DNA of 64,000 bases. It comes from Novosphingobium sp. GTDB lineage: Bacteria > Pseudomonadota > Alphaproteobacteria > Sphingomonadales > Sphingomonadaceae. How positions within the stretch are numbered: the stretch's first letter is position 1; each line of letters opens with the position of its first letter. Of this stretch, positions 36,612 through 64,000 are shown piece after piece. Position numbers and translations under genes: made by a program. The stretch is from contig JADJYM010000013.1 of NCBI GenBank assembly GCA_016719755.1, positions 64,501-128,500 on the forward strand. The letters are read 5' to 3'. Under the pieces are notes generated by a model. It searched no databases and was not told where the DNA came from. It worked only from the letters and a program-made list of their open reading frames with translations.

Positions 36612-36640
36612 TGTCTCGACTTCGCCTGACACGAACGAAG
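36612..36640. repeat. Degenerate palindromic repeat, GTCTCGAC...GAACG type
   Basis: GTGTC at 36612 pairs with GACAC at about 36629, and GTCTCGACTTCGC and ACGAACG lie within the stretch. It matches in pattern the right arm of the much better preserved palindrome inside uvrA (62720-62745), so both may belong to one repeat family. Confidence 0.45.
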
Positions 36641-36660
36641 GGGGGCGCTTGCCATCTTTC

Positions 36661-36751
36661 GTCGTTGCGAGGCCGCAGGCCGAAGCAATCCAGGAGCGGC
36701 GTTGAACTGCCTTCTGGATTGCCGCGTCGGGCGTCGCCTCCTCGCAATGAC
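36661..36751. repeat. Intergenic palindromic repeat, GTCATTGCGAGG family, copy 1
   Basis: The outer arms GTCGTTGCGAGG (36661-36672) and CCTCGCAATGAC (36740-36751) pair with one mismatch; the inner arms GCAATCCAG (36685-36693) and CTGGATTGC (36714-36722) pair exactly. Related copies lie at 42516-42600 and 57341-57425. The element sits between convergent genes. Confidence 0.8.
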
Positions 36752-36762
36752 TATGCTGTGTA

Positions 36763-61933: not shown

Positions 61934-64000
61934 ATGTCGCTCAGCAAAATCGTCGTCCGGGGTGCCCGGGAACACAACCTCAAGGGCTTTGATGTCGAGC
62001 TGCCGCGCGACAGCCTGATCGTGATTACCGGCCTGTCGGGTTCGGGCAAGTCAAGCCTCGCGTTCGATACGATCTATGCCGAAGGGCAGCGGCGCTATGT
62101 CGAGAGCCTTTCGGCCTATGCGCGCCAGTTTCTGGAAATGATGCAGAAGCCGGACGTGGAGCATATCGACGGCCTGTCCCCGGCAATCTCGATCGAGCAG
62201 AAGACCACCAGCCGCAACCCGCGCTCGACGGTCGCCACGGTGACCGAGATCTACGATTACATGCGCCTGCTGTGGGCGCGGGTGGGGGTGCCCTACAGTC
62301 CGGCCACCGGCCTGCCGATCGCGGCGCAGACCGTCAGCCAGATGGTCGACCGGGTGATGGCCCTGCCAGAGGGCACACGCGGCTATCTGCTTGCCCCCGT
62401 GGTGCGGGCGCGCAAGGGCGAATACCGCCGCGAACTCGCCGAATGGCAGAAGGCGGGCTACACCCGCGTGCGGATCGACGGCGAGCTTTACGCGATCGAG
62501 GACGCCCCCGCGCTCGACAAGAAGTACAAGCACGACATCGAAGTGGTGGTTGACCGCGTTGCCGTGCGCGAAGGGATCGAGACGCGCCTCGCCGACAGTT
62601 TCGAACAAGCCCTGAAACTGGCCGAGGGGCTGGTCTATTTCGACCTTGCGGACACGACTGTTGCCGAAGTCACCAAGGCTCCGTTCGCATCGAGCGCGGT
62701 CGAGACACCTGCGCGCGACGTCTCGACTGCGCTCGATGCGAACGGGCCGGGGGGTAAGATGAAGGGGGCGGGCCTGCCGCCCAACCGCATCGTCTTTTCC
62801 GAGAAGTTCGCCTGTCCCGTCTCCGGCTTCACCATCGAAAGCGTGGAGCCGCGCCTGTTCAGCTTCAACGCGCCGCAGGGCGCGTGTCCCGCCTGCGATG
62901 GGCTGGGCGAAAAGCTGCTGTTCGATCCGCAGCTGGTCGTGCCGAACGAGATGCTCAGCCTCAAGCAGGGTGCGGTGGTGCCCTGGGCCAAGTCCAACCC
63001 GCCTTCGCCCTATTACATGCAGGTGCTCTCCAGCCTGGCGGCCGAATTCGGCTTCAGCCTGGAGACGCCATGGCAGGACCTGCCGGTGGAAGTGCGCATC
63101 GTGATCCTGCACGGAACGGCAGGCCGTCCGGTGCCGCTGACCTTCACTGACGGCAAGAAGAGCTACACGGTCAACAAGGCTTTCGAAGGGGTGATCGGCA
63201 ACCTCAACCGCCGGATGCTCCAGACCGAAAGCGCCTGGATGCGCGAGGAGCTGGGCAAGTTCCAGACCGCCCAGCCGTGCGAGACCTGCGAGGGCAAGCG
63301 CCTCAAGCCCGAGGCGCTGGCGGTGAAGGTGGGGGGCGATGACATTTCCAGCGTCACCCGCCTGTCGGTGGCGGCGGCGGTGGAATGGTTCGGCGGCCTG
63401 AACGAGCGGCTGACCAGCCAGCAGCAGCAGATCGCCCGGGCGATCCTCAAGGAGATCAACGAGCGGCTGGGGTTCCTCAACAACGTCGGCCTCGATTACC
63501 TCAATCTCGACCGCACTTCGGGCACGCTGTCGGGCGGGGAAAGCCAGCGCATCCGGCTGGCCAGCCAGATCGGATCGGGCCTGTCGGGCGTGCTTTACGT
63601 GCTGGATGAACCCAGCATCGGCCTGCACCAGCGCGACAACGACCGGCTGCTGGAAACGCTGCGGCGGCTGCGCGATCTTGGCAACACGGTGATCGTGGTC
63701 GAACATGACGAGGACGCGATCCGCACGGCTGACCATATTGTCGATCTTGGCCCCGGCGCAGGCGTCCACGGCGGGGAGATCGTCGCGCAGGGGACGCTGA
63801 AGGACATCCTCAAAAACAAGGACAGCCTGACCGGCCAGTACCTTTCGGGCGCGCGGCGGATCGAGGTTCCCAAGCAGCGGCGCAAGGGCAACGGCCATTT
63901 CATCACGGTCCACAATGCGCGGGCCAACAACCTGCGGAACGTCACCGCCAGCATCCCGCTGGGCACTTTTACCTGCGTGACCGGCGTTTCGGGATCGGGC
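61934..64000 (+). CDS. uvrA: Excinuclease ABC subunit A, 3' end cut by window; palindromic repeat inserted in frame
   Basis: The first 689 codons of UvrA, the damage-sensing ATPase of nucleotide excision repair, are present. The N-terminal sequence [20 protein letters not shown] precedes Walker [36 protein letters not shown]. The zinc-finger pair ([14 protein letters not shown]) and signature [20 protein letters not shown] with [16 protein letters not shown] follow. The second ABC half begins at [14 protein letters not shown] and the second Walker A is cut. Residues 250-271 ([20 protein letters not shown] and NG) are encoded by a 65-bp palindrome (62681-62745) in a linker just before [13 protein letters not shown] LexA box lies directly upstream. 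Confidence 0.97.
62681..62745. repeat. Palindromic repeat inside the uvrA coding sequence
   Basis: The left arm (62681-62706) begins CCGTTCGCATCGAGCGC and ends GGTCGAGAC. The right arm (62720-62745) is its reverse complement at 25 of 26 positions; the loop is 13 nt. The element is 65 bp, in frame with uvrA and free of stops in that frame. It resembles the degenerate GTCTCGAC...GAACG repeat at 36612-36640. Confidence 0.85.

Follow-up and report, generated by a model that had tools for sequence, protein, structure and literature searches.

The window analysed here, a stretch of 64,000 nucleotides of Novosphingobium DNA, ends within uvrA (61934..64000, forward strand), which encodes excinuclease ABC subunit A in 985 codons and extends past the window end. 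The UvrA protein scored above the cut-off of two NCBIfam equivalogs, with 1571 bits for PRK00349 and 1440 bits for TIGR00630. Within the gene and on the same strand lies a palindromic element of a repeat family that we call family A (62681..62745). Its left arm (62681..62706) is a family A unit in reverse orientation with one mismatch to the pattern, its right arm (62720..62745) is a unit in forward orientation with none, and a loop of 13 nt (62707..62719) separates them. As a preliminary description of this DNA had stated, the two 26-nt arms pair at 25 of 26 positions (96%), and the element is read in frame: counted from the ATG at 61934, it forms codons 250-271 of uvrA without a stop. The stem score of this linker was 23, whereas 20 dinucleotide shuffles of it averaged 7.8 and did not exceed 13. 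Similarly, the RNA fold of the insert reached -60.8 kcal/mol against -31.8 +/- 3.0 in 200 shuffles (z -9.7). When known RNA families were compared with the insert, three miRNA models alone matched, far under their gathering scores, which we read as plain hairpin likeness.

The insert follows the residues TTVAEVTKA (62654..62680, forward strand), which we refer to as the "TVAE" linker allele. Compared with L091, the nearest relative by DNA (86.0% identical), the linker is longer by 22 residues (66 nt), and both flanks are equal in length. The residues just to the left of the insert differ at seven of nine positions, TTVAEVTKA here and GTVPGREEE in L091. The expectation of an insertion with clean edges therefore held for the lengths but not for the sequence of the left flank. 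We found no empty allele from a very close strain: the nearest uvrA relative is 86% identical, and its left flank differs too.

In two alignments to solved structures, UvrA is aligned up to query residue 238 and the alignment resumes at residue 285 or 286; in 2r6f, four residues lie between the aligned flanks. An AlphaFold model places predicted strands at residues 233-238 and 285-289 on either side of a stretch, 248-281, with a block mean pLDDT of 22-28. The model is middling overall (mean pLDDT 66.5, 24 sequences) and falls below 50 elsewhere too, for example at 292-327, so that the low value in the loop is weak evidence. We predict, at this low model quality, that the insert sits in an exposed, unstructured loop, which we place after the UvrB-binding domain and ahead of the first zinc module.

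Family A in the genome and in other genes

Allowing up to three mismatches, we counted 60 half-sites of family A, each a 26-nt unit, in the 3.7-Mb Novosphingobium genome; the reversed pattern, searched as a control, gave 0. This search bears out the view that the element belongs to a repeat family. Merging the half-sites by hand gave 35 places, of which two are coding (uvrA and an E2 acyltransferase gene) and 33 are intergenic or unclear; a place was called coding from codon use on both sides together with an open frame. The genome holds 25 inverted pairs, 63-104 bp long. One further palindrome of the family lies 23 nt past the uvrA stop, beyond the window (L031:3416-3483); its 26-nt arms are fully complementary, and its position is like that of a transcription terminator. 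The degenerate relative that had been noticed in the window is present as a decayed single half-site at 36613..36638 on the forward strand (three mismatches, 0.00 expected by chance), in DNA that is intergenic or unclear. It adjoins, within 36613-36760 of the window, an imperfect inverted repeat of another kind, the AAGCAATCCAG type, with arms at 36674-36696 and 36711-36733 that are 74% complementary.

The E2 acyltransferase insert forms residues 116-150 of an open frame and lies in the linker that joins the lipoyl domain (11-83) to the E3-binding domain (159-192). In a second Novosphingobium genome, G028, two of the nine family A places inspected are coding, one in a carboxyltransferase gene (Pfam Carboxyl_trans) and one in the gene for the NAD-dependent DNA ligase LigA. 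The copies in uvrA, E2, carboxyltransferase and LigA are 56-104 bp long and are read in one common frame (PFxSSxVE ... VSTxLDxNG), in agreement with the earlier suggestion that the family can spread into coding DNA. We rejected the idea that UvrA is the sole coding target, since inserts are also found in E2, carboxyltransferase, LigA (at two sites) and GlyS.

The LigA of G028 (L310/L323) carries two in-frame palindromes at two sites and of two families, C3 and A, and a second genome has family A at the second site (L325, G011). Recognisable LigA inserts were present in at least 2 of 26 genomes of the genus, compared with 13 of 26 for uvrA; the LigA figure is a lower bound because the scan delimited site 2 in 19 of the 26 and site 1 in three. 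Among the half-sites of another family, D, inspected in G028, 3 of 30 are coding and lie in two genes, glyS and a methyltransferase-like gene identified by a weak match (27.9 bits, cut-off 27; no NCBIfam match). The GlyS protein (L359, glycyl-tRNA synthetase beta subunit) contains tandem family D peptides, with SPAQAGAS repeated and then EVPAFAGT. Family D units also stand three in a row, in a single orientation and at a spacing of 101-104 nt, at G028:C29:43079-43302 and at G028:C1:447569-447797. Finally, family A elements occur on large secondary replicons of Sphingobium (nine plasmid-collection records), and in all nine records no annotated feature lay under the best family A match.

The UvrA loop across Sphingomonadaceae

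We searched for UvrA in 61 genomes (58 matched), in an even draw of 149 genomes across the family (147 matched) and in named genomes (80 loci, the best of them from Novosphingobium). Linkers read from 254 loci gave 248 distinct ones, nearly all from Sphingomonadaceae. Five rows (L060, L265, L269, L279 and L281) were dropped at the anchor search, and two whose anchors fell too far upstream (L159 and L200) were kept among the 248. The even draw yielded 145 loci that were read and 141 linkers.

Palindrome arms were found in 73 of the 248 distinct linkers and fell into eight subfamilies in four sequence groups, A to D. The same scan found no arms (0/248 each) in two control stretches of uvrA flanking the linker. 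In the even draw, arms were present in 36 of 141 genomes, or in 35 of 136 distinct linkers. A stem score of 15 or more was reached by 51 of the 248 linkers, and the top score among 20 shuffles per row was 14; L136, a VPGRE linker (see below) with a score of 13, was set aside as probably due to chance. Group B is of the CTTCGACAAGCTCAG type, group C and its subtypes are of the type CCCTCCCGC..GCGGGAGGG and like sequences, and group D is CCCCGCCTTCGCGGGG and like sequences. Since groups A and B have outer ends in common and could be distant relatives, the number of unrelated groups in the loop is at least three. Within one clade, like flanks enclose different families (D in L042, C in L043 and B in L152). 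A series of decayed copies (L040, L059, L111, L221 and L224) retains a single recognisable arm and keeps the frame open.

If the inserted residues were an ordinary part of the protein in this group, all sphingomonad UvrA proteins would be expected to have a homologous segment of the same length. This was not so: 111 of the 248 linkers are short with a VPGRE motif, and the 73 with arms are described above. Outside the family, the loop was short in all 56 outgroup genomes that could be judged. Among the matches listed, and counted by hand, 0 to 30 nt separated the matched UvrA parts in 22 of 24 genomes from other families of the same order, and the gap was 0 to 24 nt in the 34 genomes that could be judged, of 112 matched, from other orders of the same class. 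We conclude that the same UvrA loop has been entered by different palindromes repeatedly in related bacteria and is a recurrent landing site. In this way the loop offers small repeats a natural point of entry into an important gene.

Resident repeats and reading frame

We counted exact half-sites of each of the four families in 26 Novosphingobium genomes, selected from the 37 of the genus (G000-G036) as those with a full or nearly full UvrA match; G036 and G021, the latter with a C insert of one arm (L048), were among those left out. Copies within uvrA are part of these counts. In 13 of the 13 insert-bearing genomes the family of the insert was also present elsewhere, with at least two exact half-sites per genome; the inserts are of family A (G000 and G003), B (G013, G006, G007, G029 and G026), C (G009, G027, G015 and G011) or D (G028 and G016). 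In G003 there were just two half-sites of family A, and in G016 the sub-variant CCCTGC..GCAGGG was found both in uvrA and elsewhere. Repeat load was higher in the 13 genomes with an insert than in the 13 without one (p 0.0003, for hand-summed counts that include the uvrA copies and are not corrected for relatedness). Two genomes of the group without inserts, G032 and G035, have long linkers without recognisable arms, and two others, G004 and G031, have many repeats yet no uvrA insert.

The recognised arms in uvrA lie in a single phase for families A (7/7 and 7/7), B (16/16 and 16/16) and D (8/8 and 13/13), counts that we give without a p-value because the rows they come from are related. Stops are few in the alternative frames of these arms. 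The frames in use give peptides rich in Ser, Thr, Pro, Ala and Glu, and the others are mostly Arg-rich or more hydrophobic. The conserved frame in A, B and D points to selection at the level of the peptide. A strict single-frame rule does not hold for every family, since the C and C4 arms in uvrA are not confined to one phase, and in G028 the methyltransferase-like gene has its D copy in a different frame.

Origin and fate of the inserts

Taken together, we consider it very likely that the 65-bp feature is a copy of a non-autonomous, REP-like dimer that landed in frame in a tolerant UvrA loop, where it would be kept as putative neutral ballast because its frame and peptide do no harm. The unit would be a dimer formed by two inverted copies of a sequence of about 26 nt, and a mobilising enzyme acting in trans would move it. 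The dimer would land in frame within the exposed, unstructured loop of UvrA. We infer that the majority of landings in genes would be lost, that in-frame landings giving a hydrophilic, flexible peptide in a loop would be tolerated, and that the palindrome would decay afterwards with the frame staying open. This reading is supported by the dispersed family, by the four groups in the loop, by the resident match in 13 of 13 genomes and by the single frame of A, B and D. A RAYT was the candidate mover that we considered, and our search for a parent transposon was limited to Y1 transposases. We found no RAYT-type Y1 transposase (Y1_Tnp, PF01797; E 0.001) in the genome itself; a match was present in 6 of the 26 genomes of the genus and bore no obvious relation to their repeat load. 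We therefore rejected a RAYT as the mover.

The palindrome could in principle be a chance outcome of uvrA divergence or an assembly artefact. No point speaks in favour of this, and it is refuted by the 35 places at which the family occurs, by a stem far above the shuffles and by the palindromic state of the site in other assemblies too. Alternatively, the hairpin itself could be selected as a strong palindrome in the uvrA message or DNA, acting as a pause, stability or regulatory element. The extreme fold of the insert and the fact that several repeat groups share little beyond palindromy at this one point are consistent with such selection; however, the decayed copies lose an arm and keep the frame, and arms were not recognisable in 105 of the 141 even-draw genomes, which together make this explanation unlikely. 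We also considered that the inserted peptide is useful to UvrA, for example as a tether or as a contact for UvrB or another partner. This could explain why open frames and hydrophilic peptides are retained, decayed copies included, but the site is occupied by peptides of differing sequence, a recognisable one is missing from those same 105 genomes, and the loop is predicted, at low model quality, to be unstructured. We regard a useful peptide as very unlikely, and conclude that the insert is most likely putative neutral ballast for UvrA and not a functional part.

A stronger competitor comes from the distribution of the linker types. Insert-free relatives mostly show a VPGRE motif where TVAE goes with inserts. 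Only 1 of 117 VPGRE linkers is palindromic (5 are long and 111 short), compared with 60 of 78 TVAE-like linkers (17 long, 1 short); the remaining 53 linkers are of neither type and 12 of them are palindromic. Thus, 60 of the 73 palindromic linkers are TVAE-like and one is VPGRE; L066 may be a case of an insertion inside a VPGRE linker. The near-exclusive association of inserts with TVAE is not predicted by simple neutral insertion. It would follow if two old alleles exist, a short VPGRE and a long TVAE, with palindromes accumulating in the long one and the linker being swapped between species in very short recombination tracts, so that the presence or absence of an insert would mostly reflect exchange and not repeated insertion. 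On a well-supported tree built with FastTree, insert and no insert alternate among L095, L097, L039 and L045: L039 and L095 have like B inserts and flanks and are interleaved with the VPGRE rows L045 and L097 (support 100), and L039 and L045, 95.7% identical elsewhere, differ in the linker. Insert presence changes 40 times on the tree with branches below 95 collapsed, and up to 50 times otherwise, whereas shuffling the labels gave means of 58 and 63; we do not read these changes as insertion counts because linker exchange would inflate them. On the other hand, 75-nt windows beside the linker showed no excess likeness to the supposed donor, so that no import by recombination was detected there, the eight subfamilies still require insertions, and the clade of L042, L043 and L152 has different families enclosed by like flanks. 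These patterns call for either strong parallel change or an exchange of linkers in very short tracts. We consider it possible, if short of probable, that exchange between two old alleles explains most of the pattern of presence and absence.

In-frame palindromes of this kind have counterparts in the literature. In the accessible text of PMC3733652, intragenic REPs of the GTAG and CGTC super-families are described as small palindromic dimers encoding 20 to 30 residues, many of them in DNA synthesis and repair genes. Named examples are uvrA in Thioalkalivibrio and in O. terrae, a DNA ligase in O. terrae, and uvrB in R. conorii. For two sphingomonads, E. litoralis and S. alaskensis, REPs are listed in tRNA synthetases and tRNA pseudouridine synthase B. 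In that text, REPs in other genes of one functional category are at differing sites, and sharing of a single site is given only for two Xanthomonas species, in recB. Here, by contrast, a single UvrA loop is common to several repeat families across a bacterial family. Judged on 25 paired copies inspected against the description in that text, family A carries neither the GTAG nor the CGTC tag. The CGTC REPs are described there with their tag and a stem of 8-9 bp beginning with AT, which family A does not match and family D does: one arm, that of L108, judged by inspection, reads CGTC ATCCCAGC GAAA GCTGGGAT CTC, with a CGTC tag, an 8-bp stem from AT and a 4-base loop.

The preliminary description had likened the element to the protein-coding palindromic elements of Rickettsia. 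As far as the accessible text of PMC10969869 describes them, those RPEs are selfish palindromic repeats of about 150 bp that lie in frame in many unrelated genes and encode a conserved peptide. In-frame insertion into unrelated genes (uvrA, E2, carboxyltransferase and LigA) is common to both, but the coding copies of family A are 56-104 bp long. Because the Rickettsia elements are described as RPEs of about 150 bp or as CGTC-tagged REPs, we retain the likeness in behaviour and not the membership. Family A also resembles REPINs and RAYT-associated REPs as they are described in the accessible literature, which consist of short palindromic units in inverted pairs, dispersed over the genome in tens to hundreds of copies (here 60 half-sites and 25 pairs); it differs from them in that its genome has no Y1 transposase match that could represent a cognate RAYT. 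Like MITEs, family A is short, non-autonomous and built on inverted repeats, but the flanks of the 25 paired copies in its own genome have no constant target-site duplication, only a trend towards C-rich sequence on the left and G-rich sequence on the right.

Three core strings of the family A sequence were not found in print in the literature searched, and the accessible text of that literature gave no family-wide, single-loop UvrA hotspot in sphingomonads. The element itself, as first described, is confirmed, and the interpretation given with it is supported; that description was silent on the multi-family hotspot and on the in-frame uvrA REPs of other phyla published in the accessible text. 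In-frame REPs, including those in uvrA of other phyla, are thus already known from these sources, and the multi-family, single-loop hotspot across Sphingomonadaceae is the addition made here.

Repeats within coding DNA are usually viewed as rare accidents, and the UvrA loop has been entered by several groups across a family. We tentatively propose, as a reading less likely than not, that the loop serves permanently for both landing and exchange, so that any resident family can be inserted or replaced in frame and alleles are traded between species. If true, tolerance alone would not suffice, and some form of targeting would be at work, either insertion directed by hairpins or recombination over very short tracts. 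The short, long, fresh and decayed states that stand side by side form a natural series on the entry of selfish palindromes into proteins, and this series bears on which frames survive, on how repeats without a visible transposase are moved, and on why UvrA is hit so often.
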